From assembly GCA_011523505.1 (NCBI GenBank), contig WTGP01000008.1, positions 244,629-308,628 on the forward strand: 64,000 nucleotides of DNA, written 5' to 3'. The notes under the pieces are model-generated. The model was not told where the DNA came from, ran no database searches, and worked only from the letters and a program-made list of their open reading frames with translations. The translations under genes and the position numbers were made by a program. Below are positions 17,124 through 31,562 of this stretch, piece after piece. Within the stretch, counting starts at the first letter, position 1. Each line of letters starts with the position of its first letter. The stretch is from Gammaproteobacteria bacterium (GTDB lineage Bacteria; Pseudomonadota; Gammaproteobacteria; Steroidobacterales; Foliamicaceae).

Positions 17124-18023
17124 TCAGTCTGACAAAGTCCCTGGCCGGTCTTCCGCGCTGCGGCGCCGTTCCACCGTTTCGAGGTAGTCCGGCCCTTCGT
17201 CGAACTCGGGCGAGACGTCGAAAAGAGGGTTCCTTGCCCGGGCGTGGGCGATGTAGTCCTCGCCCAAGTCTTCCAGCGCGAACACCTTGGTGCTCTCGAA
17301 GTGCCAGACCATGTAGCCCTCCACGTCGGCCATGTCGAGCCAGTGGCTGAAGCCGCCGACGAACCAGCCGGCGCGCACGGCCGGAGACTGGACGGCGCTG
17401 TCGTCCAGCGCCACCTCGGCCGGAGCGAAGTAGGTGTGGGTTTCGTAAATGGGCCGTGGCGCAACCGGCGCGAACTTCTCGATTTCGAACAGGCGGATCG
17501 AGCCGTTGTCCACCCGCCAATCCAGGTCCAGCGGCCTGTCGTCGTACATTTCCGGAAATCGCGCCTTGCTGTTCTGAAAGTAGCTGCCCCTGGGGGTAAA
17601 CACCTCGCCGTCCTGGCGCCGCTGCAGGGCCGGCTCGAGCCGGACCGTGCGGCCTGTCAGCGGATTCTCGAAAGCGTCTATGAAAGCGCCGGTTTCCGGG
17701 TCGATGAAGAAATTGATCGACGACGGGTAGCGGCGGTAGTTCCCCTGCCCGTCGGGCCGCCACCACGATCTCTCACCGCCGCGGTTTTCGAGCAAGGGCG
17801 TCACGCCGTCCCGCGTCAGGGCGAATATGCGGCTGGCCCCCTGCCAGTAACTCTCCCCTTCGTCGGTGCGTCCCAGGATGCGCACCCTGGCGGCGTTCTG
17901 TTCGACCGGGTCCGTCGGCAATTCCTGCACGTGCTCGCCGGCACTGACCTGCCGCCAGGGCAGAACCGCGGGCCCCAGGCCCATGGCGGCAATCAACGCC
18001 GTCGCATCCCGCCGCGTAACCAT
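17124..18023 (-). CDS. DUF1838-like Tat/Sec-exported protein
   Basis: Protein of unknown function resembling the DUF1838 family. I choose ATG 18023 (299 residues) because it starts MVTRRDATALIAAMGLG, a twin-arginine-like leader ending near VSAGE, and the upstream 42 codons overlap the preceding gene. Features: aromatic-rich mid-section (INFFIDPETGAFIDAFENPLTG), paired pattern YFAPAEVALDDSAVQSP, and WLDMADVEGYMVWHFESTKVFALE near the end. Fourteen bases separate it from the secreted protein upstream, so the two are likely co-expressed, possibly with the catabolic operon further upstream. No catalytic motif is recognisable. Confidence 0.65.
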   Translation of the reverse strand: MVTRRDATALIAAMGLGPAVLPWRQVSAGEHVQELPTDPVEQNAARVRILGRTDEGESYWQGASRIFALTRDGVTPLLENRGGERSWWRPDGQGNYRRYPSSINFFIDPETGAFIDAFENPLTGRTVRLEPALQRRQDGEVFTPRGSYFQNSKARFPEMYDDRPLDLDWRVDNGSIRLFEIEKFAPVAPRPIYETHTYFAPAEVALDDSAVQSPAVRAGWFVGGFSHWLDMADVEGYMVWHFESTKVFALEDLGEDYIAHARARNPLFDVSPEFDEGPDYLETVERRRSAEDRPGTLSD

Positions 18024-18037
18024 GGCGGCCCTGCCGG

Positions 18038-18841
18038 TCAGGACCCCACCTCGGTGATGTCCAGGCTGACAAGTTCGAAGACCGAGCCATAGACGGCGCC
18101 GAAGTAGAGATCCATGCGCAGCAGGATGCGGTCCTCCTTGGTCAGCCAAACCTTCGTGCCGCTGACCATCTCGAACTTGTCGGCCAGGAAGGTCTTGCCG
18201 TCGGCGATGGTGATCTCCTCTTCGCCGAGATACGTGTATTGAGACAGGGCGATCACGCCGACCATCGTGCCGTGCAGGGTGCCGCCCATCCAGTAGATGC
18301 CGTGAGGCTGCTTGCCCGGTGCGTCGAAGTCGTAGTGAAGGAAATGCAGCCCGTCGGCCGAGGCGGGGCCGACCCCGATGGAATCCAGCCGGGCGAGAGC
18401 TTCTACTTCTTCGCGAATCATTCCTTCGCCGGCACGCTCGAACTCAAGATCGGAGGCCGCCACGTCCACGCTGTCTTCGCGCTTCACCACATAGGCCGAA
18501 CCGATAACGCCGTCTGTGGTCCAGGTGTTGAGAAAAGCCTCACGCGTGTCGCCTTCCGGATCGACCCAGACCATGGCGTGGCGTGCCTGACCGAAACGCA
18601 TGTTGTCGGACACCACGTGCATGTAGCGGCTGCCGTCCGCATGGAAATACAGGGTCCAGTATTCGGTGGCGCAACGGGCGTTGTCCCTGGACGGCTCACG
18701 GCATTCCGTGGTGCCGCGCGCGATCCTGACGATGCCCGGCGAGCGGTCTTCGGGCTCTATGGTTTCCACCTGGGCCGGTGCGTAAACGGGCGCCGCAAGA
18801 AGCGCAGCGAGAACGAGTCCGCTTGAGAATTGAATGCGCAT
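18038..18841 (-). CDS. Secreted protein of unknown function
   Basis: 267 residues with a Sec signal peptide (MRIQFSSGLVLAALLAAPVYAPAQ). The mature part contains a Cys pair (TTECREPSRDNARCATEYW) that could form a disulfide, beta-rich segments such as YWTLYFHADGSRYMHVV, and YFGAVYGSVFELVSLDITEVG at the end. I do not recognise the family with confidence; the sequence looks like a beta-barrel or lipocalin-like lipid-binding fold. Position between the cyclase and the DUF1838-like gene suggests a periplasmic partner in the same substrate's handling, which is inference. Confidence 0.6.
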   Translation of the reverse strand: MRIQFSSGLVLAALLAAPVYAPAQVETIEPEDRSPGIVRIARGTTECREPSRDNARCATEYWTLYFHADGSRYMHVVSDNMRFGQARHAMVWVDPEGDTREAFLNTWTTDGVIGSAYVVKREDSVDVAASDLEFERAGEGMIREEVEALARLDSIGVGPASADGLHFLHYDFDAPGKQPHGIYWMGGTLHGTMVGVIALSQYTYLGEEEITIADGKTFLADKFEMVSGTKVWLTKEDRILLRMDLYFGAVYGSVFELVSLDITEVGS

Positions 18842-18887: not shown

Positions 18888-19676
18888 TTATGCGGGAGCG
18901 GGGGTGAGCGCGAGGACGCGCAGGGGGCTGCCGGAACCTTCTTCCAGCTTGAGCGGCGCGGTGAACAGCACGGCGCCGGTGGGCGGCAGCCGGTCCAGGT
19001 TGTTCAGGCACTGCAGGCCGTACTTGCCGGCGCCGTGCATGTAGTAGTGGCAGGGGTACGGCGGGTTCAGGCGCTGCGCCTGGCCGCTGTCGGTGCCGAT
19101 GGTCTCGGTGCCGAAACCGAGCACGTCGCGCTCGTCCACCAGGAATCGTACGCAATCCACGTCGGGACCCGGCGTGTGCTGGCCGATCTCGTCGTAGTTC
19201 TGAAACGCCACCGGATCGTTGACCCGGCGCGCCCAGCCTGTGTGCATCAGCACCCAGGCGCCCGCGGGTATCCGCCCATGATCCGCTTCCCATTCCTCCA
19301 GGCGCTCGCGGGTCAGCAGGAAGTCTGCGTCGCGCTCGGCGTCCCTGGTGCAGTCCACCACGCAGGCCGGCGCGATCATGTGTTCGGGCGGAATCGTATC
19401 GACCGAGTTATTGGGCAGTTCGCGACCGGAAACCCAGTGGATGGGCGCATCGAAATGCGTTCCGGTGTGTTCGCAAAGCGTGAAGTTGTTCCAGTACCAG
19501 GCAGGGCCGCGGCCGTCGTAGCGGGAGATCTCCTCGCTTCGGTAAGGCAGCGCCTGGCCCATTTCCGGCGGAAGGCTAAGCTGGGGAAACGAGGGGCCCA
19601 GCGTGTGCGTCAGGTCGACGACCTTGAGCTTGTCGGCGGCGATTCCCGCCAGCAGGTCCTGGAGCAGGTCGGTCAC
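18888..19676 (-). CDS. Cyclase-family metal-dependent hydrolase (kynurenine formamidase-like fold)
   Basis: Member of the cyclase family (PF04199 type). The metal site motif HTGTHFDAPIHW is clear, preceded by VVDLTHTLGP and followed by GTDSGQAQRLNPPYPCHYYMHGAGKYGLQCLNNLDRL. Family members hydrolyse N-formylkynurenine or isatin and related cyclic or acyl substrates. I choose GTG 19676, which overlaps the upstream SDR stop as GTGA (262 residues), over the track start 33 bases upstream inside the SDR gene. It is the last gene of the coupled catabolic operon and may release a product by C-C, C-N or ester cleavage; the substrate is unknown. Confidence 0.82.
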   Translation of the reverse strand: MTDLLQDLLAGIAADKLKVVDLTHTLGPSFPQLSLPPEMGQALPYRSEEISRYDGRGPAWYWNNFTLCEHTGTHFDAPIHWVSGRELPNNSVDTIPPEHMIAPACVVDCTRDAERDADFLLTRERLEEWEADHGRIPAGAWVLMHTGWARRVNDPVAFQNYDEIGQHTPGPDVDCVRFLVDERDVLGFGTETIGTDSGQAQRLNPPYPCHYYMHGAGKYGLQCLNNLDRLPPTGAVLFTAPLKLEEGSGSPLRVLALTPAPA

Positions 19677-20401
19677 AGCGTCAGTGAACCCACGGAAGTG
19701 CCGCCGCAAACGTAGAGCGTCTGCCCGGTCACGAAGCCGTTGCCGCGGTCGAGGAAGAACAGGGCGGCGCGGGCGACGTCGGCGGGCCGGCCCAGGCGGC
19801 CGATCGGAATCGAGGAAGCCAGCTTGCCGGCGCGTTCGCTGCCCGGGGGCACGACGTCGTCGAACATTTCGGTCTGGGCGATCGGGCCGGGCAGGATGAC
19901 GTTGGCGGTCACCTTCTGCGGCGCCAGCTCCAGCGCCCAGGTGCGCGCCAGGCCCAGCATGCCGGCCTTGGTGGACGCGTAGGCGGTGCGCTTGGCCAGC
20001 CCCACGACCGCGCGGCTGGACATGAGCACGATGCGGCCCCAGCCGGCCTCGCGCATGCAGTCGAGACTGGCCTGCACCATCGCTACCGCCGCGCCCATGT
20101 GCAGGCGCGCCAGCGCGTCCATGTCTTCCTGCGTGACTTCCGGCAGCGGCCTTTCGCGGATCACGCCCGCGTTGTGCACCAGCCGGTTGGCCGGAACGCT
20201 TGCAGCCGCTTCCTCGAAGGCCTGCCGGGTCGCTTCGGGATCGGTGAGATCGACCGCGATCGATTTCACCGCGGCGGAGTCGGTCGCGGCGGGCCGGCGC
20301 GAGAAACAGATCACCTCGCTGCCCTGCTCCACCAGCATGTCCACGAGACAGGCGCCGATGCCGGAGCTCGCGCCCGTCAGCCAGACCCGGTCCCCGCTCA
20401 T
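19673..20401 (-). CDS. Short-chain dehydrogenase/reductase
   Basis: NAD(P)-dependent oxidoreductase of 242 residues with all classical SDR elements: WLTGASSGIG (Rossmann loop), VHNAGV, the catalytic Ser in VLMSSRAVVG and Tyr-x3-Lys in YASTKAG, and NVILPGPIAQT after it. The start is ATG 20401, overlapping the DUF35-SDR gene (ATGA); the 457-residue track ORF extends into that gene in the wrong frame. Probably oxidises or reduces a hydroxyl/keto group on a CoA-linked or free intermediate, given its operon. Confidence 0.9.
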   Translation of the reverse strand: MSGDRVWLTGASSGIGACLVDMLVEQGSEVICFSRRPAATDSAAVKSIAVDLTDPEATRQAFEEAAASVPANRLVHNAGVIRERPLPEVTQEDMDALARLHMGAAVAMVQASLDCMREAGWGRIVLMSSRAVVGLAKRTAYASTKAGMLGLARTWALELAPQKVTANVILPGPIAQTEMFDDVVPPGSERAGKLASSIPIGRLGRPADVARAALFFLDRGNGFVTGQTLYVCGGTSVGSLTL

Positions 20402-21648
20402 GCGGTCTGCGACTCCAGCGCCAGTTCGCGCTCCAGCACCTTGGGGTTGTGCTTCCACCGCTCCAGCCATTCCTTCGCGACGTCCCCCGGGAACAGGTCC
20501 TCGACGCCGTCGCGCAATCCCTGGACGATGTCCCGGGCCAGCCTTTCCGGCGCCAGCTTGGGCGGCGGCAGGGGCTGGTTCCATTCCTCGTCGATGGGGC
20601 CGGGGAACACGTTCACGACCCGGATTCCCGCGTCCTGCATCTCCGCGCGCAGGCATTGCGAGAGCGACAGCGCCGCGGCCTTCGAGGCCGAATACGTGCC
20701 CTGCGGCGGGTAGTTGCTGAGCGCGTAAACGCTGAGCACGTTCACCCAGGCCGTGGCCGACGCGCCGCCGTCGGCGCCGCGCGCGCGCATGGCCGGGCCG
20801 AAGGACTGGGCCAGGCGCAACAATCCCAGGTAGTTGACCTCCATTTCCCGCCGGGCCAGTTCCGCCCCGCCGCTGCCGGCTATGCCCTGGGTCCGGTGCA
20901 CCTCGGCGTTGTTGACGAGAATGTCCACCCGCCCGCCGATCTCCGCGCCGATGCGCTTGACCCCGCGTTCGTCGGTCAGGTCCAGCGGGATGACGGTGAC
21001 CTGGGGCAGCTTCTCGATGGCCTCCTGGCCCGCGTATTTCTTCCACGGCTCGGCCTGCCCCACCCAGATGACGGCCGCGCCGGCCGCCGCGAGCTCCCGT
21101 ACCAGCGCCTGGCCGACCCGGCTCTTGCCGTCGGTCACCAGCACCTTGCGGTGTTCGGGATCGCAGGAGAATTCCCCGTGACGTGGATCCGTGCTCATGT
21201 CTCCCAGTTCATCCGCGGGGAGCGCCACCAGCACGCCTCGGCCCGCCTTGTCCAGTTTAGCCGTAACGCGCACCGCGGCGGGCGGCGCCGGGCAATCGCG
21301 GTGCAGGTGCGCCACGACCACCGGACCCTCCTCGAGCCGGGTCAATCCCAGTCTCCAGGGCAGGCGTTCGCGATAGAAAGGATCGTTGCTGTGATGCAGG
21401 GTCGTGTGCGCCAGCAGCTCGCCGCGCCCCGACATCGGCGTCCAGAGCAACTCCTCGGAAAGACAGCCTCGGCAACTGTCCACCGGCGGGTATTGCACCC
21501 GGCCGCAGGACTCGCAGCGCTGCAGCGCAAACCGCCCTTCCGCCGCCTGCGCCGTCAGGCCCAGCGCCGTGCGGCTGCGCGGCATCGGCGGCGTCAGCGG
21601 CTGCCGCGTGCGCAGGATGGGGTTCTTGAGGCGGGGCCTGGCGCGCAT
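20398..21648 (-). CDS. DUF35 (zinc ribbon/OB-fold) - SDR fusion protein
   Basis: Two-domain protein of 416 residues. Residues ~30-155 form a DUF35 unit: a rubredoxin-like zinc ribbon with CESC (45-48) and CRGC (59-62), then an OB fold (GRGELLAHTTLHH ... EEGPVVVAHLHRD). Residues ~165-416 form an SDR: YSASK near 319 with the upstream catalytic Ser in NVLSVYALS. Its cofactor loop is degenerate (VTDGKSRVGQ in place of TGxxxGxG) and NNAG reads NNAE, so nucleotide binding may be altered. DUF35 proteins are obligate partners of thiolase-fold enzymes, and the thiolase-like gene lies three bases upstream. The fusion suggests that the SDR acts on the product released from that complex. Both activities are inferred. 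Confidence 0.85.
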   Translation of the reverse strand: MRARPRLKNPILRTRQPLTPPMPRSRTALGLTAQAAEGRFALQRCESCGRVQYPPVDSCRGCLSEELLWTPMSGRGELLAHTTLHHSNDPFYRERLPWRLGLTRLEEGPVVVAHLHRDCPAPPAAVRVTAKLDKAGRGVLVALPADELGDMSTDPRHGEFSCDPEHRKVLVTDGKSRVGQALVRELAAAGAAVIWVGQAEPWKKYAGQEAIEKLPQVTVIPLDLTDERGVKRIGAEIGGRVDILVNNAEVHRTQGIAGSGGAELARREMEVNYLGLLRLAQSFGPAMRARGADGGASATAWVNVLSVYALSNYPPQGTYSASKAAALSLSQCLRAEMQDAGIRVVNVFPGPIDEEWNQPLPPPKLAPERLARDIVQGLRDGVEDLFPGDVAKEWLERWKHNPKVLERELALESQTA

Positions 21649-21651
21649 GGC

Positions 21652-22815
21652 TCAGGGGCGGGCAAGGACGGCGGCGGCGCTGCACAGGCCGCGGTCGTAG
21701 TTGATCATGCCGAAACCGGAAACGGCGCCGTGCGTGGCGTCGGCAACCTGCCGGCCGAGCGGACGGCGAAGAAGCTGGCGCATCGCCTCCACCAGCCCAA
21801 GGAACCCGCCGGCGGCGCCCGCCTGGCCCATCGAGAGCTGGCCGCCGCAGGTGTTCAGCGGACAGTCGCCGTCATACGCGAACTCATGCTCGCGAACGAA
21901 TGCCGCACCCTCGCCCGTAGGACAGAAGCCCAGTTCCTCGATCTGCATCAGCGTGATCACCGGATAGTCGTCGTAAGCCTGGAAGAAATCCATGTCGCCC
22001 GGGCCCACGCCCGACTGCCCCCAGAGTTCGTCGCGGTCCAGCGCCCAGCCTCCGCGCATCTGCACGGGGTCGTCGGGAAAGGCATTGTGCCGTTCGATCG
22101 CGCCGAGCACCCGCACGGAGTCCAAACCCAAAGCGTCGGCGCGCTCCGCCGTCATGACAAGGTAGCCGTCCGCCCCGGCGCAGGGCATGACGCAGTCGAA
22201 CAGGTGCAGCGGCTCGGCTATGACCCGCGCGCCGAGGTATTGGTCAAGATCGAGCGGCTTGCGCAGCAATGCATGAGGGTTGTCCATGGCGTTGCGACGC
22301 TGGGCCACGCACAACTTGCCGAAGTCCTCCCGCTCGACGCCGAACTGCCGCATCCACCAGTCGGTGATGAAGGCGAAGCTGGCGTTGGGGCCGCCCGATC
22401 CGTACGGATAGACGGCGTCCTGGGCGAAGCGGCTGAAAGTGGAAAGCGTGCGCCGGAACGTGTCCACGTGATTGGTGTCGCCGGCGATGCAGGCGACGAT
22501 CTCCGCGTCGCCCGCCTGCACAGCGCGGGCCGCCCGCCTGAGGCAGACGATGCCGGAGGCGCCGCCCATCGGTACATGGTCCAGCCAGCGCAGCGACATC
22601 CCCAGGTGCTGCGTCAGGCCAACCGCCGTGTCCGGGCCGAGCGTGAAGCTGGATATGCCCAGGCCGTCGATGTCGTCCTTCTTCAACCCGGTGTCCTTGA
22701 GCAGCGCCGCCAGCGCCCGCGCTATCCACCAGTGCGCGTCGTGCGTGGAATAGCGCCGGTACGGAACCGTCACCGGCGCGGCCAGAGCGACGCCCTCGTA
22801 GTCGTGCCGGGTCAT
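21652..22815 (-). CDS. Thiolase-fold protein lacking the N-terminal catalytic Cys (SCP2/lipid-transfer type; possible acyl-CoA aldolase)
   Basis: 387 residues of the non-decarboxylating thiolase superfamily. At the position of the nucleophilic Cys (CASG in thiolases) the sequence reads MGGASGIVCLRRA near residues 82-94, so Cys is replaced by Gly. The later motif NTCGGQLSMGQAGAAGG corresponds to the usual NxxGGxxxxGHPxGATG but lacks the catalytic His. A C-terminal Cys lies in YDRGLCSAAAVLA. Similar Cys-less members (Ltp2) form retro-aldolases with a DUF35 partner in steroid side-chain degradation; a DUF35 protein follows immediately here. I therefore favour an acyl-CoA aldolase over a true thiolase. 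ATGA overlap with the ligase gene. Confidence 0.82.
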   Translation of the reverse strand: MTRHDYEGVALAAPVTVPYRRYSTHDAHWWIARALAALLKDTGLKKDDIDGLGISSFTLGPDTAVGLTQHLGMSLRWLDHVPMGGASGIVCLRRAARAVQAGDAEIVACIAGDTNHVDTFRRTLSTFSRFAQDAVYPYGSGGPNASFAFITDWWMRQFGVEREDFGKLCVAQRRNAMDNPHALLRKPLDLDQYLGARVIAEPLHLFDCVMPCAGADGYLVMTAERADALGLDSVRVLGAIERHNAFPDDPVQMRGGWALDRDELWGQSGVGPGDMDFFQAYDDYPVITLMQIEELGFCPTGEGAAFVREHEFAYDGDCPLNTCGGQLSMGQAGAAGGFLGLVEAMRQLLRRPLGRQVADATHGAVSGFGMINYDRGLCSAAAVLARP

Positions 22816-24464
22816 GCCGCCCTCGACGGGACGGGCCGTTTCAGCTTGCGGGTGTCCACGCAGTCGGCGCGGTCCAGCAGGTCCGCGGCCAGTGATTTCA
22901 GCGCCGCCCGGTCGAGCTTCTCCGTTGTAGTGTGGGGCAAGGCGTCCACGAACGCGACGTAACCGGGCGCCTTGAAGTAGGCAAGCCGCTCGAGACAGTA
23001 GCGCACCAGGTCTTTCGCCGCCGACTGCGCATCGCCGGAGTCCACGCTACCGGCCTTCAGCCGGATGCAGGCAAACACCTCGTCTCCGCGAATCTCGTCC
23101 GGCGCTGCCACGACGCCCGCTTCGGCGACGGCATCGTGCTCGGCCAGCACTCCTTCGACCTCCACGGCGGCGATGTTCTCGCCGCTGCGCCGGATCATGT
23201 TGCTCTTGCGGTCGACGAAGTGCATGTCGCCGTCGGCATCGCGCGCCACGACATCGCCGGTATGGAACCATCCGCCCGCCCATGCGGCATCGGTGGCCGC
23301 GGCGTCCCTGAAATAACCGGAGAAAAAGCCGAGCCGCGGATCGCCGCCGGCGTGGCGCACCCACAACTCGCCCGGCTGATCCGGGCCCACGTCGTTTGCC
23401 CGGTCATCGACGATGCGCACGTCCACCGCCGGCAAAGGCCGTCCGAAACAGGCGGTGCCCCGCTTGCGCGGTTCGCGGTTGGCGATCATCGCGGCGCTCG
23501 CGCCGGTCTCGGTCATCGCCCAGGCCTCCACCAGCGGAAACCCGAAGCGCTCCTCGAACGGCACGTGCTGGCGGCTGCCGACGCCCGCGCCGAACCCGAA
23601 TCGCACGCGGTGACGGCGCTCGGCCGGGTCCTCCTCCAGTTTGAGCAGTATCGCGGGCATCACGCCCAGGTAATGGACGATAGTCGCGCCGGATTCCCGG
23701 ACTTCCCGCCACCAGGTACGCGGGTGAAACCGGTCCAGCGGCACGATGCAGCCGCCGTTGACCAGCATGACCATGGTCGAGCAGGCCATCGCGTTCATGT
23801 GGTGCATCGGCAGCGGCGTGATCAGGCAGTCGCCGGCCTCGTCCAGCGAGCACAGTCCTCCCAGCGCCGTATACCAGTCCCCGATCATCGTGAAATAGCG
23901 GTTGCTGAGCATGCAGCCCTTGGGCTTGCCGGTCGTGCCCGACGTATACAGAAGCGCGCATTCCCGATCGGCGGCATCCGCGGGCTGCCGGCCGGCCCCG
24001 GACTGCGACCGCAATTGCGGAAGGTCTTCGCCAGGCGTGCGCACCGGCACATCCAGCCCTTCCGCCTGCACCACCTCCCGCAGTTCGTCCACCCGCTCCG
24101 GCAACGCGATCACAAGACTTGCCTCGCTGTGCGCGAGCGCGTAGCCCAACTCGGCCGAGCGCCAGGCCGGGTTCATCGGCGCGGCAGATATCCCCAGCGC
24201 GTTCAGCGCCAGCCAGTGCAGGAACATCTCCGGGCGGTTCTCCAGCAGCAGCGCGACGCGTTGTGGACCGCCGTCGGCTATTCTGGAGAATTCGCCGATC
24301 AGCGCCTGCGTGCGTTCCCAGGCTTCGGCATAACTCAGGTCGCCCGCCTCGATGCCCGTCCGCTCGGCCGTGTCCCGCGTAATGCGGAGAAACGGCTTAT
24401 CGGCGTGCCGCCGCGCCGCGTCCTCCAGCACGCGCGCCACGGTGCCCGGGGCTGCGACACTCAC
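22812..24464 (-). CDS. AMP-forming acyl-CoA synthetase
   Basis: ANL-superfamily ligase that activates a carboxylic acid to its CoA thioester via an acyl-adenylate. The P-loop LLYTSGTTGKPKG lies near residues 170-182; further motifs are VEAWAMTETGAS, GWFHTGDVVARDADGDMHFVDRKSNMIRRSGENIA (A8 hinge) and FKAPGYVAFVDALPHTTTEKLDR with the C-terminal catalytic Lys. 550 residues. It starts with GTG overlapping the oxygenase beta-subunit stop. The operon implies a ring or side-chain carboxylate as the substrate; chain length cannot be read from sequence. Confidence 0.92.
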   Translation of the reverse strand: MSVAAPGTVARVLEDAARRHADKPFLRITRDTAERTGIEAGDLSYAEAWERTQALIGEFSRIADGGPQRVALLLENRPEMFLHWLALNALGISAAPMNPAWRSAELGYALAHSEASLVIALPERVDELREVVQAEGLDVPVRTPGEDLPQLRSQSGAGRQPADAADRECALLYTSGTTGKPKGCMLSNRYFTMIGDWYTALGGLCSLDEAGDCLITPLPMHHMNAMACSTMVMLVNGGCIVPLDRFHPRTWWREVRESGATIVHYLGVMPAILLKLEEDPAERRHRVRFGFGAGVGSRQHVPFEERFGFPLVEAWAMTETGASAAMIANREPRKRGTACFGRPLPAVDVRIVDDRANDVGPDQPGELWVRHAGGDPRLGFFSGYFRDAAATDAAWAGGWFHTGDVVARDADGDMHFVDRKSNMIRRSGENIAAVEVEGVLAEHDAVAEAGVVAAPDEIRGDEVFACIRLKAGSVDSGDAQSAAKDLVRYCLERLAYFKAPGYVAFVDALPHTTTEKLDRAALKSLAADLLDRADCVDTRKLKRPVPSRAA

Positions 24465-24946
24465 AGGAAAAGCTGTATGGAAGGCAGCGCCGCGTCGCGG
24501 TTCAGCAATTCGATGCGCTTGACCGCGATCTTCAGACCGCCGTCCTCAAGGCGAAGGTCGTGGTGCGCGACGCCGCCCAGCATGAACTGCTCGTCCAGCC
24601 GTGTCTCGAGATAGACGAACGGCGTGCGCATCGCATATTCGCCCGCATCGTCGTCCCGCCCGACGAGTTCGGGGCGCTGCAGCACATGCTGGCAGAAGCT
24701 CGGCTGCTGCTGCGAATGCGACAGCGGGTTCTTCAGCCGCTCGATGCGCACCTTCAGCAGAAACCTGTCCTCGCAGAACAGCGAGGTGTGGCTGTGCGGG
24801 TCCGTCTGCCCGCGCACAAGCGGCATCCAGTACAGCGCGTCCTCCGTGAACAAGTCGTACCATTCGTCCAGCCGCTTCTCATCAATCAGCCGCGCCTCGC
24901 GATAAACGAACCGCGCCAACTCCGCCTTCCCCGGCCCCTTCGTCAC
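24461..24946 (-). CDS. Aromatic-ring-hydroxylating dioxygenase beta subunit
   Basis: Non-catalytic small subunit of Rieske oxygenases, an NTF2-like cone fold (161 residues). Motifs: ELARFVYREARLIDEKRLDEWYDLFTEDALYWMPL, typical of the family N-terminus, and RTPFVYLETRLDEQFMLGGVAHHDLR near the C-terminus. The start is GTG 24946, forming a GTGA overlap with the alpha subunit; the longer track ORF is antiparallel noise from inside the alpha gene. It is co-translated with the alpha subunit. Confidence 0.9.
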   Translation of the reverse strand: MTKGPGKAELARFVYREARLIDEKRLDEWYDLFTEDALYWMPLVRGQTDPHSHTSLFCEDRFLLKVRIERLKNPLSHSQQQPSFCQHVLQRPELVGRDDDAGEYAMRTPFVYLETRLDEQFMLGGVAHHDLRLEDGGLKIAVKRIELLNRDAALPSIQLFL

Positions 24947-26274
24947 GCGCCGGCCTCGCCGCGGGGAAGCATGTACTTGAGCCAGGCACGGAACTGGCCG
25001 CGCATCGAAACTTCGCTGGTGCCGTTGTAGACGCCGGCTATGCCCTCGTCCTCCGCGGGGTCGTAGTTGCGATGCAGGCTGACCCAATCGTTGCCCTGCG
25101 CGTGCAGACCCTGCTGGATCTCGCTGTAGCAGTGCAGGTCGTCGTGCCCCACCACCGAGGTAGGCGCGTTGATCAGCCGCGAATACGTCATCGTGCGTTT
25201 GAGCAGTTCCTCCGGCGCGCCCGCCAGGCGGAAAGTCCAGCTTTCCAGCACCGTCCTGTTGGCCGCCAGCGGACGCGCGACGCGGATCGCCTGGATCGCG
25301 CCCTTGATCGTGAGGCTGGGGAAATAGACCGTGTTGTGGCGGTTCTCGCCGAGAATCGCGTGGGCCCGTTCCTCGCCGTAGGCTTCGATCATCCGCCGCT
25401 CGTACTCCGGCTCCGCGGAGTACTTCGAGTGGATCGAGAACTTGACGCCGGTATAGGAGTGTCCGTTCTCGTAGATCTTCACGCCCATGTTGTCGAAAAA
25501 GTCGTAGTCGTTGACGAAGGGCGCGAACTGCTGCACCACCATCGGCGGTTCCCCTCCGTCGCCCTCCTCCTCCCAGAGCCGCTTGGCGATACCGGCCGAG
25601 GACTGGTGCGCCACCATCGGGTGCATCGCGTCGTTCAGGTTCTCCACGAACATCTTCCAGTTGCAGTCGTGGTCGTAGCGCAGCACGCCGCCGGCGATCT
25701 CCAGCCGGCCCTCCGGCGAGCGGTCGGCCATGTTGTCGATCGAACTCAGGGAATCGCCGAAATAGTCGTGAAAATCCGGTCCCTCGTTGCTGAGGCGCAC
25801 GAACACGAAGCCCCGGTAGATTTCCTGATTGGGCACCGGCGTCAGACCCTTCCAGTGGGCCGAATCGGAGATCTCCGTTCCCCGGTAGCCGCCCTTCATC
25901 GGGACCGTCCTTAGGCTGCCGTCAAGGCGATAGGTCCAGCCGTGGTACGGACATCGCAGCGCGCTCCCGCAGTTCCCTTCGACCGCGCTGACCACGCGCG
26001 TGCCCTTGTGCGCGCAACGGTTCAGAAAAACCCGCACCTGGTCGTCGCGTCCCCGCAGCATCACCAGCGGCGAGCCGGCGATGTCCGCCGTATAGAAGTC
26101 GCCCCGCTTCGGCACCTGGCTGTCATGACCCATGTAGATCCAGGTGTTGCGCCACAGCCGTTCCAGTTCCAGCTCGTAGAGTTCCTCGGATATGTACAGG
26201 TCGCGATGCACGGCGTCGGGCCGGACCAGGGCGCGCAGTGCGTCGGGATTGCTGGCGTATGAACGGGCGGTCAT
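24943..26274 (-). CDS. Rieske aromatic-ring-hydroxylating dioxygenase alpha subunit
   Basis: Catalytic subunit with an N-terminal Rieske [2Fe-2S] domain (CAHKG near residue 86 and CPYHGW near 108) and a C-terminal mononuclear iron domain (ENLNDAMHPMVAH, giving the D-x2-H-x4-H ligands near residue 215). The enzyme would insert dioxygen into an aromatic or ring substrate using electrons from a ferredoxin/reductase, neither of which is encoded in the window. I use ATG 26274 (MTARSYASN, 443 residues); the extension to 26337 adds no homology. It is the first gene of the catabolic operon ending at the cyclase gene, and is divergent from the serine hydrolase cluster. Confidence 0.94.
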   Translation of the reverse strand: MTARSYASNPDALRALVRPDAVHRDLYISEELYELELERLWRNTWIYMGHDSQVPKRGDFYTADIAGSPLVMLRGRDDQVRVFLNRCAHKGTRVVSAVEGNCGSALRCPYHGWTYRLDGSLRTVPMKGGYRGTEISDSAHWKGLTPVPNQEIYRGFVFVRLSNEGPDFHDYFGDSLSSIDNMADRSPEGRLEIAGGVLRYDHDCNWKMFVENLNDAMHPMVAHQSSAGIAKRLWEEEGDGGEPPMVVQQFAPFVNDYDFFDNMGVKIYENGHSYTGVKFSIHSKYSAEPEYERRMIEAYGEERAHAILGENRHNTVYFPSLTIKGAIQAIRVARPLAANRTVLESWTFRLAGAPEELLKRTMTYSRLINAPTSVVGHDDLHCYSEIQQGLHAQGNDWVSLHRNYDPAEDEGIAGVYNGTSEVSMRGQFRAWLKYMLPRGEAGA

Positions 26275-26351: not shown

Positions 26352-27599
26352 ATGGCAGGAAGAACCGGCGGATTGGGGGATATGATTACGCGCTCGGCAG
26401 GGGTTGCAAACGGATTCGTGAAGAGATTGCTGCGCATCTTCGGACTGACCGTCGCCTGGGCGGTGGGCGGAGTCGTGGGCCTGGTCCTGCTGGTCGTGCT
26501 GGGCTTCCTGGTGGCCAAGCCGACCGAGACCATTCGCCTGTTCGGCCAGTTCGCGGGAAACCGTCCCGGTCACATGCAACGGGTTCCCGGCGCCCCGGAG
26601 CAGCCGCTTCCCAAGGCGTCTTTCGGCGAACGCGCCCTGTCCGTCGAGAGCCTGCAAGCGGCCATGGACTACGGCGCCCAAACCGGGTCCGACGCGCTGA
26701 TCGTCTGGCGCGGCGGCCGCGTTCAGCTCGAGCACTATTACGAGGGCGCCGACGAAAACACGCTAACCTCGACCCAGTCCATGCACAAGTCGGTGCTGGC
26801 CCTGCTGGTGGGCGTTGCGATCGCCGAGGGGCACATCGGCTCCGCGGACGATCCGATCAGCCGTTATCTGCCCGAGTGGGCTGGGGACGAGCGCGCAGCA
26901 ATCACGATTCGCCAGGCGCTCTGGCAAAGCAGCGGCATCGATTTCCCGACCTTCGCCTTCGGCAGCCTGGGGTCGATGATGGGCCTGCTGATCGGCCAGG
27001 ACATGCGTCCGATCACGTTCGAACAACAGGCGGTGGAACCGCCGGCCACAAGTTTCGAATACAACAGCATCAACCCGCTGGTCCTGGGCCTGGTCATCGA
27101 AAAAGCCACCGGCCGGCCGTATGCGGAATACCTGTCCGAAGCGCTCTGGAAGCCGCTGGGCGCCGGCGACGGCTGGGTGCAGATGGACACCGAGGGCGGC
27201 ATGGCCCGAAGCTACTGCTGCCTGGACATTCCGGCCCGCGGCTGGCTTCGTCTCGGCCTGCTGCACCTCGAAGACGGCCGCGCGAACGGCCGCCAGCTCG
27301 TGCCGGAGGAGTGGATCGCGGCCGTCCGCACGCCCGGCCCCAACAACCCGAACTACGGTTTCCTGACCTGGCTGGGCACGGAACACGTGGAGCAGCGCGC
27401 CTACAACTCGAAGGCTTCGCTGCGTGCATACCACTCGGAACCGTTCGCCGCCGATGACGTTACCTATTTCGACGGATTCGGCGGACAGCGCGTCTATATC
27501 ATTCCGAGCGCCGACATGGTGATCGTGCGCACCGGCGCGCTGGCCACGGACTGGGACGATTCGCGTCTGCCCAACCTGTTGCTGGCGGGACTGAGATGA
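26352..27599 (+). CDS. Serine hydrolase, beta-lactamase/penicillin-binding fold (paralogue 1)
   Basis: Class C beta-lactamase-like hydrolase of 415 residues anchored by an N-terminal hydrophobic helix (GLTVAWAVGGVVGLVLLVVLGFLVA). The nucleophile motif is SMHK (S143, K146), the second motif lies in FEYNSINPLVLG (Tyr retained), and the third element reads FDGFGGQRVYIIP in place of KTG. It shares long segments with the two downstream paralogues, notably AYHSEPFAADD and the CC pair in RSYCCLDIPA. Relatives include esterases and oligomer hydrolases (for example nylon oligomer hydrolase), so beta-lactamase activity should not be assumed. A second possible start is ATG 26382. Confidence 0.85.
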   Translation: MAGRTGGLGDMITRSAGVANGFVKRLLRIFGLTVAWAVGGVVGLVLLVVLGFLVAKPTETIRLFGQFAGNRPGHMQRVPGAPEQPLPKASFGERALSVESLQAAMDYGAQTGSDALIVWRGGRVQLEHYYEGADENTLTSTQSMHKSVLALLVGVAIAEGHIGSADDPISRYLPEWAGDERAAITIRQALWQSSGIDFPTFAFGSLGSMMGLLIGQDMRPITFEQQAVEPPATSFEYNSINPLVLGLVIEKATGRPYAEYLSEALWKPLGAGDGWVQMDTEGGMARSYCCLDIPARGWLRLGLLHLEDGRANGRQLVPEEWIAAVRTPGPNNPNYGFLTWLGTEHVEQRAYNSKASLRAYHSEPFAADDVTYFDGFGGQRVYIIPSADMVIVRTGALATDWDDSRLPNLLLAGLR

Positions 27600-27613
27600 A
27601 AGGAGACTTCCTT

Positions 27614-28891
27614 ATGAAAACGGGACATGGCATTGCGGCCGCCGTGATGCTGACCATCGGCGTCGCTGCCGCCCAGGAGCGGCCGAATACGCAAATGACG
27701 CCCGAGGAAATCCAGGCCCGGGTGGACTGGGTCAACGAGGTGGAGGCGCAGGACTTCCATTTCTGGCGGCGCTGGCGCGATCAGCCCGACCAGACCGCGT
27801 TCCGCCAGCCCCAGACCTGGTACAACCCCATGATCCTGGTGGACGGGGGCGTCTCCCAGCCGTTCTTCCCCTCTGCCGGCCCGGACGAGCCGCCCACCAT
27901 CGATCCCGAGGCCGTCGCCGTTGCCACGGCCTACGCAATGGAGCGGGAAACGCAGGCCTTCATGATCTATCACAAGGGCAAGATCCGTCACGCCGAATTC
28001 ATGGACGGATTTCACGAGAGCTCGCCGATCAGCTCCCATTCCTGGGTGAAGACACTGCACGGAATCGTCGCCGGCTTCGCACTGGCTGACGGCGATATCG
28101 GGAGCCTGGACGACCCGGTCGAGAAGTACATCCACGAGTGGAAAGGCGACCCGCGCGGGCAGATCACGGTGCGCCAGGTGCTGCACAACACCACCGGCCT
28201 GGAACTGCCGTTCGGCCAGCGTGGCCAAGGCCCCCAGCCGTACGCGAAGAGCATGCAACTGGTGGAGGGAAGCGATATCTACGGCACGGTGCTTTCGTTC
28301 GAGTTGGCGGAAGAACCGGGCACGACCTTCGCGCACAACAACCCCAACACGCAGCTCGCCGGCATGATCATCCACCGCGCCACCGGCAGGAACTTCGCGC
28401 ACTACCTCGGTGAGAAGTTCTGGCGGCCGCTGGGCGCGCAGCGCGGCGCCATGCGCCTGGACGGCCTTGAGGGCAATGTCATCTCGTATTGCTGCTTCCT
28501 GTCGGCGCCGGCCGACTGGATGCGGGTCGCGCACCTGCTCATGAAGGACGGCAAGCTGCCGGACGGCACGCAGCTTCTGCCGGACGGCTGGGTGGACGAA
28601 ATGCTCACCGGCTCGGAACCCAATCCGAACTACGGATTTCAGATCTGGACCGACACGGTGTACATGGAGCGGCGCCCGTACTACCCGAGCATGCCCCCGA
28701 ACTTCGCCAACTACCACTCGGAGCCCTTCGCCGTCGACGACCTGTTCTACCTGGACGGCGGCGGCAAGGTGCGGGTCTGGATCAGCCCCAAGCTGGACCT
28801 CATCGTGCTGCGCATGGGCTATCCGCCGCCGCGCGACAAGGGCTTCGACGAAGCCGTCATCCCCAACGCCGTCATTCGCGGCATCCTCTAG
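27614..28891 (+). CDS. Secreted serine hydrolase, beta-lactamase fold (paralogue 2)
   Basis: 425 residues. I choose ATG 27614 because AAAGGAG lies 8 bases upstream and the product then begins with a clean signal peptide (MKTGHGIAAAVMLTIGVAAAQE); the track start 18 bases upstream overlaps paralogue 1. The nucleophile motif is SWVK (S143), but the usual Tyr of the second motif is His (FAHNNPNTQLAG). The terminal segment NYHSEPFAVDDLFYLDGGGKVRVWI parallels the other copies. Co-directional with paralogue 1 and the following DUF1801 gene, so one operon is likely. Confidence 0.85.
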   Translation: MKTGHGIAAAVMLTIGVAAAQERPNTQMTPEEIQARVDWVNEVEAQDFHFWRRWRDQPDQTAFRQPQTWYNPMILVDGGVSQPFFPSAGPDEPPTIDPEAVAVATAYAMERETQAFMIYHKGKIRHAEFMDGFHESSPISSHSWVKTLHGIVAGFALADGDIGSLDDPVEKYIHEWKGDPRGQITVRQVLHNTTGLELPFGQRGQGPQPYAKSMQLVEGSDIYGTVLSFELAEEPGTTFAHNNPNTQLAGMIIHRATGRNFAHYLGEKFWRPLGAQRGAMRLDGLEGNVISYCCFLSAPADWMRVAHLLMKDGKLPDGTQLLPDGWVDEMLTGSEPNPNYGFQIWTDTVYMERRPYYPSMPPNFANYHSEPFAVDDLFYLDGGGKVRVWISPKLDLIVLRMGYPPPRDKGFDEAVIPNAVIRGIL

Positions 28892-28908
28892 CCTGCGTGG
28901 GCGGTCAA

Positions 28909-29337
28909 GTGGCGGCCAACCGGAACAAGACCCGTCCAACCGGCGCGGGAGTCGATACGTTTCTGGACGCCGTCGAAAACGAACGCCGGCGGGAGGATGC
29001 GCGAACGGTCAACGCCATGATGGAGCGGATCACCGGCTGGGAGCCGAGAATGTGGGGGCCGAGCATCGTCGGATTCGGCGAATATCACTACCGTTACGAC
29101 AGCGGCCGCGAAGGCGACTTTCTCATCACCGGATTTTCGCCGCGCAAGAACGCGCTTACCATCTACATCATGCCGGGGTTCGCGCGCTACGATGCGCTGA
29201 TGGCCAGGCTGGGAAAATTCAGGACGGGCAGGTCCTGCCTGTACATAAACAAACTCGACGATGTGGACCTTTCGGTTCTGGAGGAACTGATTGCGTCATC
29301 CGTGCAATACATGGTCGGGAAATACGGAGTGACATGA
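28909..29337 (+). CDS. DUF1801 family protein
   Basis: 142-residue cytoplasmic protein in a frame the track reports only as the tail of a longer shadow ORF. GTG 28909 gives VAANRNKTRPTGAGVDTFLDAVENERRRED; GTG 28897 is an alternative. Family features are MMERITGWEPRMWGPSIVGFGEYHY, DFLITGFSPRKNALTIYIMPGF and FRTGRSCLYINKLDDVDLSVLEELI, which match the DUF1801/YdhG-like fold. Function is unknown in the family. It lies between two serine hydrolases and couples by position to the cytochrome gene one base after its stop. Confidence 0.8.
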   Translation: MAANRNKTRPTGAGVDTFLDAVENERRREDARTVNAMMERITGWEPRMWGPSIVGFGEYHYRYDSGREGDFLITGFSPRKNALTIYIMPGFARYDALMARLGKFRTGRSCLYINKLDDVDLSVLEELIASSVQYMVGKYGVT

Positions 29338-29338
29338 A

Positions 29339-30184
29339 ATGATCAATCGCGCTGCCGCGGCATTCGCCCTTGCCGCCCTCGTCTGGCAGCTGCCGGCTTC
29401 GCCCGCCGGCGCGCAGGAGAGCCTGACCCGCGAGGCGCTGGCCGGGGCCGACTACGTGCGGGGCCGGCTGGCCTTTCAGCAGCGCTGCAGCGCCTGCCAC
29501 ACGCTCGCCGAGGGCGCCCTGCACCTGGCGGGTCCCAACCTGTGGGAGGTCATCGGCCGGACCGCCGGCTCCCGGGAGGAATTCACCTATTCCGAAACGC
29601 TCAGGGAGGCCGATTTCGCCTGGACGCCGGACCGCGTGGACGAATGGCTTGCCAACCCCGACAGCTATCTGCCGGGCAACACGATGCTGATTCCCGAACC
29701 GGTGCCCGAACGTGACCGCCTCCCGATGATCTCGTTCATGATGATGGAAACGGGCGGCGCCGACTGGCCGCGTCCCGAAATTGACATCGCCGCGCTCGAA
29801 ACACCCAGGGGCGAATCGCCCGCCGAGCGCTTTCCGAGCTTCTGGAACCATCTGATGCACAACACCACCCGTTACCGCTGGGTGGACGACGAGCAGGAAT
29901 TCGAGTTCGACGCCTACTACAACAAGGACGGCTCGGTCAGCTCCAGCATGGAAGGCGTGGACGGTTTCTGGCACATCAATGAACGCGATTTCTTCTGCTA
30001 CGCCCTGCAGGGGCTGCCGATAAGGCCGAACTACTTCGTCCAGTGCTTCCCGGTGGCGGCCATGGCCATACCGCGCTTCTCCGAGCAGTTGTGGCAATCG
30101 CCGATGTACGGCGGAGCGGTGCTCTACGGGGGCATTCTTCCCGGCCGGCCCACGGACGACGCGGAGACAGCCGCGCCCGAGTAA
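29339..30184 (+). CDS. Secreted c-type cytochrome with an unfamiliar C-terminal domain
   Basis: 281 residues. A signal peptide (MINRAAAAFALAALVWQLPASPAGAQ) precedes a single-haem class I cytochrome c domain: CSACH at residues 50-54, then GPNLWEVIGRTAGS and a probable distal Met in PGNTMLIP. The last ~140 residues (FPSFWNHLMHNTTRYRWVDDE ... GFWHINERDFFCYALQGLP ... YFVQCFP) are not a cytochrome and contain two Cys that may form a disulfide. I do not recognise this half; its pattern of DG and GxW turns suggests a small beta-rich sensor or binding domain. Likely an electron carrier in the periplasm; its partner is unknown. Confidence 0.75.
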   Translation: MINRAAAAFALAALVWQLPASPAGAQESLTREALAGADYVRGRLAFQQRCSACHTLAEGALHLAGPNLWEVIGRTAGSREEFTYSETLREADFAWTPDRVDEWLANPDSYLPGNTMLIPEPVPERDRLPMISFMMMETGGADWPRPEIDIAALETPRGESPAERFPSFWNHLMHNTTRYRWVDDEQEFEFDAYYNKDGSVSSSMEGVDGFWHINERDFFCYALQGLPIRPNYFVQCFPVAAMAIPRFSEQLWQSPMYGGAVLYGGILPGRPTDDAETAAPE

Positions 30185-30215
30185 GCGCGCGGCCCCGAAA
30201 CAAGAAGGAGACAAC

Positions 30216-31562
30216 ATGCTCAAGCGCATACTCAGAGGACTTGCCAGGACCGGCAAGTGGACGCTGATGGTCATCGCCGTAATCGGCGTGCTGGTCTATC
30301 TGCCTTCGCGGCTCGGCTGGTACGGCATCTACGCCAAGCGCTACGTCATCTCGCTGTCCGGCAATCCCATGAGCCCCGCACGCGCCTGGTACGACCCGCA
30401 GGAACTGGTGACCGGCAGCGACTACATGCCGCTGGAAGCCTGGCCGGAGGAGGAAAACCCGATCGATCCGGCCGTATACCAGGAAGCCGCCTCGTGGGCC
30501 GAGCAGCAAAGAAGCGATTCGCTGGTGGTGCTCTACAAGGGACGGCTGGCGCATGCCAGTTATTTCAACGACCAGGCCCCCGAGTCGGAGTTCAGCACCC
30601 ACTCGCTCACCAAGGTCCTGACCTCGATTCTCGTGGGTCACGCCATCGCCGACGGCCACATGGAGTCGGTCGATCAGCCGGCCGCGGATTTTCTCCCTGA
30701 ATGGGACACGGACGAACGCCGCGGCATTACCGTTCGGGACCTCCTGAACATGGCCGGGGGCCTTGAGGAGACGTTCGCCTTCTATCCGGGATCGGCGCGG
30801 CTGGCGCGCACGATGGGGACCGACATCGTTACCGCCAACCTCGACGTCGGCATCTACGCGCCCCCGGGAACGGCGTTCTCGCACGCCAATCCCAACAGCC
30901 AGGTGGCGGGAATCGTGGTGGAGCGCGCTACGGCCAAGCGTTTCGCCGACTACCTGTCCGAGAAGCTTTGGTCGCCGCTGGGGCTGCGCGACGGCTGGCT
31001 GCTCCTCGACCGCGAGGACGGCATGGTGCACACCGACTGCTGCATGTGGACCGCGATCGAGGACTGGGCGCGCATCGGACAGGCGCTGATGCAGAACGGC
31101 TGCTACGCGGGCCAGCAGGTCATTCCGGCCGGCTGGGTGGACGAGATGACCACCCCGTCGGCGGCCAACGAGAACTACGGGATGCAGCTATGGCTGGGAA
31201 CGTCCCATGAGCCCCTGCGCAAGTACGATCCGAGCATCGAGTTCATGGGCAATGTGCATTCGGAGCCGTTCGCGGCCGATGACGTGTTCTTCCTCGACGG
31301 CGCGGGCGACCAGCGGCTTTACATGATCCCGTCGCGGGAACTCGTGATCCTGCGCACCGGCAAGGACGGTCCTGAGTGGGACGACTCGCTGCTCCCCAAC
31401 TGGTTCACGCGGGCCGTGGATTCGATCAGCGGCCAGCCGGCGGAAACGCTCCCGACGCGCGCCGACCTGAACGCCGCCTGCCTCGGCTCAGGACAGGTCG
31501 TGGCCGACGCACAGCACCGTGCATCCGCCGTCGGTGGCGGGCTTGCGCGGCATGCGGAGTGA
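30216..31562 (+). CDS. Membrane-anchored serine hydrolase, beta-lactamase fold (paralogue 3)
   Basis: 448 residues behind a strong AAGGAG ribosome site. An N-terminal hydrophobic helix (WTLMVIAVIGVLVYLPS) anchors it. The nucleophile motif is SLTK near residue 130 and the second motif is HAN (AFSHANPNSQVAG), again with His for Tyr as in paralogue 2. The tail HSEPFAADDVFFLDGAGDQRLYMIP matches the other copies. The last ~45 residues extend past the homologous region into DNA that also encodes, on the other strand, the end of the cupin-like gene (75-base convergent overlap). Confidence 0.83.
   Translation: MLKRILRGLARTGKWTLMVIAVIGVLVYLPSRLGWYGIYAKRYVISLSGNPMSPARAWYDPQELVTGSDYMPLEAWPEEENPIDPAVYQEAASWAEQQRSDSLVVLYKGRLAHASYFNDQAPESEFSTHSLTKVLTSILVGHAIADGHMESVDQPAADFLPEWDTDERRGITVRDLLNMAGGLEETFAFYPGSARLARTMGTDIVTANLDVGIYAPPGTAFSHANPNSQVAGIVVERATAKRFADYLSEKLWSPLGLRDGWLLLDREDGMVHTDCCMWTAIEDWARIGQALMQNGCYAGQQVIPAGWVDEMTTPSAANENYGMQLWLGTSHEPLRKYDPSIEFMGNVHSEPFAADDVFFLDGAGDQRLYMIPSRELVILRTGKDGPEWDDSLLPNWFTRAVDSISGQPAETLPTRADLNAACLGSGQVVADAQHRASAVGGGLARHAE

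Follow-up and report, generated by a model that had tools for sequence, protein, structure and literature searches.

CtSal, the bile-acid side-chain aldolase of Comamonas testosteroni, has a thiolase fold with a Gly at the former Cys site and works together with Shy, a DUF35 protein. Catalysis depends on Tyr302 and Cys304, with Gln347 and Gln352 assisting (PMC12329534); CtSal residues are numbered here as in that paper, in which each number equals the PDB chain number minus 24. The TcLtp2–ChsH2 complex (PDB 6OK1) is likewise a DUF35-partnered retro-aldolase with a Tyr base and no nucleophile Cys, and it converts a tertiary β-hydroxyacyl-CoA to a ketone.

Through the iad pathway, the auxin indole-3-acetic acid is removed by Variovorax, Achromobacter, Alcaligenes, and many alphaproteobacteria; work is under way to engineer this pathway into root bacteria. 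Deletion of iadF, iadG, or iadH in Variovorax causes the buildup of C10H9NO4, which was assigned by mass and labeling and taken as dioxindole-3-acetic acid; the acetyl group is missing from the products that follow it (PMC12633357). Earlier metabolomics had detected dioxindole, isatin, isatinic acid, and anthranilate (PMC9613470). The side-chain step itself has so far been assigned only through the labels “ketothiolase” for IadG and “alcohol dehydrogenase” for IadH, both given by annotation alone (PMC12633357). Among open-access papers, none was found that names IadG a retro-aldolase.

The operon around iadG

The window, by which we mean the whole 64,000-nucleotide stretch analyzed here, comes from a 3.1-Mb draft genome that is ~95% complete. 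It contains a seven-gene operon on the minus strand in the order iadD, iadE, iadF, iadG, iadH, an iadJ-like SDR gene, and iadI, with ATGA or GTGA overlaps at every junction except that between iadG and iadH, which lie 3 bases apart. The initial annotation had placed iadG correctly at 21652–22815; it is read from the minus strand, with its ATG at 22815 and its TGA ending at 21652, and the plus-strand reading of this interval is only a spurious open frame. Upstream, iadF (22812–24464, minus strand, ATGA overlap with iadG) encodes an AMP-forming acyl-CoA ligase (PF00501, PF13193). The Rieske oxygenase β subunit is encoded by iadE (24461–24946, minus strand, GTG start), whose best PDB match is the β chain of 7YLS/8H2T/9O71 (E 2e-41). 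The α subunit, encoded by iadD (24943–26274, minus strand), matches 9O71 and 7YLS/8H2T at E ~1e-188, the next Rieske protein following only at 1e-48; 9O71 is Variovorax IadDE, as stated for the PDB entry. Downstream of iadH, and overlapping it by ATGA, the iadJ-like gene (19673–20401, minus strand) encodes an SDR by Pfam with intact catalytic motifs, as in 59/59 of these operons. The last gene, iadI (18888–19676, minus strand, probable GTG start), encodes an isatin hydrolase of the cyclase family (PF04199) that matches 5NMP, 5NNA/5NNB, and 4J0N at E values from 4e-104 to 6e-79.

Judged by these matches, the genes are those of the iad auxin-degradation operon, and the gene in question is iadG. 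An oxygenase and a ligase had already been recognized near the gene; the auxin-degradation identity of the operon had been missed. Gene content and the close IadD/IadE match mark the operon as the same as the iad locus of Variovorax paradoxus CL14, for which the deletion phenotypes are known and in which IadG and IadH were published under the two labels given above (PMC12633357). The iad genes F, G, H, I, and J are all present, in the order G-H-J-I here and G-H-I-J in Ruegeria and Roseibium. Ruegeria pomeroyi, Roseibium aggregatum, and Sulfitobacter carry the same operon genes on plasmids, together with an additional reductase gene. A search of the host genome for the IadC reductase gave only a weak match (E 5e-4); IadC is reported to be dispensable for IAA degradation in Variovorax (PMC12633357).

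The arrangement is conserved among 80 loci. A DUF35 gene follows iadG in all 76 loci with room to see it, an isatin hydrolase lies nearby in 60/60, and a Rieske α subunit is present in 57/66. Within Gammaproteobacteria, IadG is sporadic, since a match at E ≤ 1e-90 was found in only 4 of 229 genomes, including the window’s own. These data bear on an ipfABDEF-like route, in which IadG would be a retro-aldolase for another aryl-acyl-CoA and would convert an ipso-dioxygenated arylacetyl- or arylpropionyl-CoA to a catechol. Plasmid pIBU218, which encodes IpfD/IpfE, carries the same kit (Rieske α and β subunits, CoA ligase, Cys-less thiolase-like protein, and DUF35 protein), and retro-aldol cleavage in its ibuprofen route, which runs via catechol, has been described (PMC9195938). 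However, IadD matches the IadD structures far better than it matches any other Rieske protein, the isatin hydrolase that accompanies every scored locus has no evident role toward catechol, and IpfD, with YDAF and an Ltp2-type Tyr, sits on a long branch outside the IadG clade. We consider such a route unlikely, and an ibuprofen-type role was rejected after the comparison with pIBU218. A steroid role was also dropped, the neighbors being an auxin oxygenase and an isatin hydrolase.

Four loci without Rieske genes were inspected for another first step, and a luciferase-like monooxygenase was found nearby in two. These loci (L017, 6157–7338; L065, 16233–17830) contain iadG, iadH, isatin hydrolase, and luciferase-like monooxygenase genes, and L065 also contains a flavin reductase gene. 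In such loci, another type of oxygenase may supply the CoA/retro-aldol/isatin-hydrolase module. In the window, the minus-strand genes downstream of iadI are one at 18038–18841 with no Pfam or NCBIfam match and one for a DUF1838 protein (17124–18149), both outside the iad set of the literature. Divergent from the operon, on the plus strand at 26352–31562, lie a gene for a PF00144 β-lactamase-family serine hydrolase (the first gene, which was tested), two further genes similar to it by eye, and a c-type-cytochrome-like gene between them.

Active site and relatives of IadG

IadG (387 aa) reads GGASGIVC at residues 84–91, where thiolases have xCxSG, and GGQLSMGQAG at residues 324–333, where thiolases have GGxxxxGHPxG. 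Alignment with the Pyrococcus thiolase 7YVY, the benzoylsuccinyl-CoA thiolase BbsB, and an SCP2-type paralog from the same genome places G85 at the thiolase Cys, Y281-D282 at HD, and G330-Q331-A332 at GHP. Both the replacement of the nucleophilic Cys by Gly and the change of the GHP-type motif to GQAG had been noted in the initial annotation, and both are borne out in a set of 84 IadG sequences from gamma-, beta-, and alphaproteobacteria. G84, G85, Y281, D282, D283, Y284, Q326, Q331, A332, and G333 are invariant in 84/84, so the changes reflect neither sequencing error nor chance. None of the three SCP2-type thiolase features (nucleophile Cys, HDCF, and GHP histidine) is found in IadG, whereas the SCP2-type paralog of the same genome has all three. 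A second paralog in this genome, on contig C19, is an ordinary Cys/HDCF thiolase. A catalytic Cys elsewhere at the active site was looked for by alignment: IadG has other invariant cysteines (C109, C208, C212, and C298), none of which aligns with the catalytic Cys of thiolases, and C109, C208, and C298 are also present in Sal or Ltp2. In 4 of the 84 proteins, including those of L017 and L025, a Cys lies two residues past the lost nucleophile site (GGACG); this Cys, too, is out of register with the nucleophile of thiolases. IadG is currently labeled a thiolase, but it lacks the thiolase machinery and resembles a retro-aldolase whose active site is distinct.

The closest solved structure to IadG is CtSal (9MYR), by phmmer (E 1e-46) and by profile search (E 6e-65). 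An AlphaFold2 model of IadG has a pLDDT of 87.7 and a pTM of 0.90, with residues 125–141 poorly modeled. A Foldseek search with this model returns 9MYR first (E 6e-32, TM 0.86) and Ltp2–ChsH2 (6OK1) second, with ranks 1–3 all belonging to these two entries; Sal and Ltp2 are thus the nearest neighbors of the modeled fold. A tree of 44 rows places the IadG clade and two YDDY paralogs (~42% identical) as sister to CtSal with 99/96 support, and all ten rows that have the nucleophile Cys, with H replacing Tyr, group apart in a clade of their own (100/100). Y is present in the motif of each of the 34 rows that lack the nucleophile Cys, Ltp2 and IpfD included; the relative placing of Ltp2 and IpfD is weak. 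The likeness to Ltp2-type aldolases that had been proposed at the outset holds for the lost Cys and the DUF35 partner, but the nearest relative is Sal, not Ltp2.

The published alternative is that IadG is a ketothiolase cleaving a β-ketoacyl-CoA with free CoA, and that IadH is an active alcohol dehydrogenase. The thiolase fold, a match to Pfam Thiolase_C_1, and the annotation itself (PMC12633357) speak for a ketothiolase, as does an isomer of C10H9NO4, 2-formamidobenzoylacetate, which would be a β-keto acid and counts against the explanation that we prefer. Against these stand the absence of the nucleophile Cys and of the HD and GHP histidines in every IadG sequence and a tree that sets IadG apart from every Cys thiolase, and we regard a ketothiolase as quite unlikely.

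CtSal and IadG share a catalytic Tyr in a YDxY motif, two activating Gln residues, and a DUF35 partner that is the product of the adjacent gene and carries a further fused domain, at an overall identity of ~28%. Tyr302, Gln347, Gln352, and Gly89 of CtSal correspond to Y281, Q326, Q331, and G85 of IadG. In contrast, Cys304 is replaced by D283, which turns YDCY into YDDY and removes the catalytic Cys; the oxyanion residue Gln161 is P143, next to an invariant N144; and Gly391 is M370. These changes also weigh against the preferred explanation. In TcLtp2, which falls in a different clade, the motif is YDHF, and the loop past GGQL is shorter. An alignment check of the tyrosines that Ltp2 uses gave a divided answer: the base, Tyr294, corresponds to Y281, but the position of Tyr344 is taken by Gln331, as in Sal. 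The known catalytic acid, Cys304 in Sal or Tyr344 in Ltp2, is therefore absent, with D283 and Q331 in its place in 84/84 sequences, and IadG is filed as a variant that is neither Sal nor Ltp2. By alignment, IadG keeps the aldolase base, has none of the thiolase machinery, and carries a novel putative acid residue: an invariant Tyr-Asp pair is found instead of the Tyr-Cys of Sal or the Tyr-Tyr of Ltp2. A role for D283 is a prediction rather than a transfer from CtSal, because the C304A, C304S, and C304H variants of that enzyme are inactive (PMC12329534), and that the Asp acts as an acid is a guess.

Similar proteins occur beyond this clade. A second YDDY group, ~42% identical to IadG, adjoins an acyl-CoA ligase in Alcaligenes faecalis (L118, 7634–10429) and Achromobacter (L119, 6285–9052), with a DUF35 gene in the latter; near it, at these two loci, homologs of neither Rieske oxygenase nor isatin hydrolase were found. 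It is possibly a retro-aldolase for another acyl-CoA. The tree paralogs L098–L113 include numerous “thiolases” that lack the Cys and have YD[ACSG]F; several of them adjoin DUF35-like matches, and a good share of the proteins annotated as thiolases or lipid-transfer proteins may be retro-aldolases.

IadH, a DUF35 protein with an SDR-like domain

The gene that follows iadG, iadH (20398–21648, minus strand), encodes a 416-aa protein that was characterized by Pfam, motif counts, a structure model, and a fold search. The initial annotation had noted a DUF35 gene within three bases of iadG; the junction reads TGA-GCC-ATG, and both PF12172 and PF01796 are present. The SDR-like domain behind them (PF00106) had been overlooked. 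The N-terminal part combines a zinc ribbon (C45-C48-C59-C62, C-x2-C-x10-C-x2-C) with an OB fold. In the partner of CtSal, by comparison, the fusion is to a MaoC hydratase and the zinc site is C3H1 rather than C4.

If IadH were the active alcohol dehydrogenase of the published annotation, its dinucleotide motif should be sound, yet the first glycine of TGxxxGxG is Asp in 78/78 sequences, and the catalytic Tyr is retained in only 20 of 76 family members. The IadH of the window keeps YSASK and lacks the glycine motif. A shorter IadH, consisting of a DUF35 protein of 133–154 aa without the SDR part, is found in Alcaligenes (three loci), Schauerella, and one alphaproteobacterium. From these sequences, IadH is a DUF35 protein fused to a degenerate SDR domain that is absent in Alcaligenes and two other lineages; this domain is probably dispensable and catalytically dead, not an enzyme. 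Its dispensable, non-enzymatic nature would explain why deletion of iadH can behave like deletion of iadG. ChsH2 offers a precedent for such a protein, being a DUF35 partner with a non-catalytic enzyme domain. Both published labels, “ketothiolase” for IadG and “alcohol dehydrogenase” for IadH, are thus probably wrong.

Proposed reaction and its meaning for auxin breakdown

Sequence, fold, tree, and operon support the class that the initial annotation had proposed, an acyl-CoA retro-aldolase that has a DUF35 partner and receives its substrate from an oxygenase and a CoA ligase. IadG, together with the DUF35 part of IadH, is likely to be the retro-aldolase of the iad pathway, splitting off the acetyl side chain. 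C3 of dioxindole-3-acetate bears a tertiary OH, and its thioester is a tertiary β-hydroxyacyl-CoA, not a β-ketoacyl-CoA. Because this OH is tertiary, a Claisen-type thiolase should be unable to cleave the thioester, whereas a retro-aldolase could. In the proposed pathway, IadDE, with IadJ, would oxidize indole-3-acetate to dioxindole-3-acetate, and IadF would form the CoA thioester, which has its tertiary β-hydroxyl at ring carbon 3. IadG with the IadH DUF35 domain would then cleave dioxindole-3-acetyl-CoA to isatin and acetyl-CoA. Y281 is predicted to act as the base on the C3 hydroxyl, and C–C cleavage would release isatin and the acetyl-CoA enolate, which D283, held by Q326 and Q331, could protonate to acetyl-CoA. 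IadH would serve mainly as a structural partner through its DUF35 domain, and IadI would open isatin en route to anthranilate. The tertiary substrate and ketone product would be as for TcLtp2–ChsH2, with a heteroaromatic in place of the steroid substrate of CtSal.

Two further observations weigh against this proposal. One is that no convincing IadC was found in the host genome. The other is that in Variovorax lacking IadI, C8H7NO2 (the mass of dioxindole) is seen and not isatin, C8H5NO2 (PMC12633357). Some isatin must then be reduced elsewhere, a reaction of which the IadH SDR domain seems incapable. An open-chain route would account for this mass differently: IadG would act on a reduced substrate, cleaving 3-hydroxy-3-(2-formamidophenyl)propanoyl-CoA to 2-formamidobenzaldehyde (C8H7NO2) and acetyl-CoA, with IadH responsible for the reduction and IadI for deformylation. 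The reported masses C8H7NO2 and C7H7NO agree with it (PMC12633357), and IadI is distantly related to kynurenine formamidase. That relationship (3e-4), however, is far more remote than the one to isatin hydrolases, and the reductase domain that this route needs looks inactive and is missing from the lineages with a short IadH, making the route very unlikely.

Returning to cleavage of dioxindole-3-acetyl-CoA, we lean toward the view that IadG represents a third catalytic type (Tyr-Asp) of DUF35-dependent acyl-CoA retro-aldolase, with IadH as a DUF35 scaffold carrying a pseudo-dehydrogenase and the pair filling the side-chain step of bacterial auxin breakdown. For this step, the analysis proposes a defined substrate, a defined product, and a set of residues. 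If true, DUF35-dependent aldolase chemistry would extend past steroids and ibuprofen, and its acid residue would be evolutionarily changeable.
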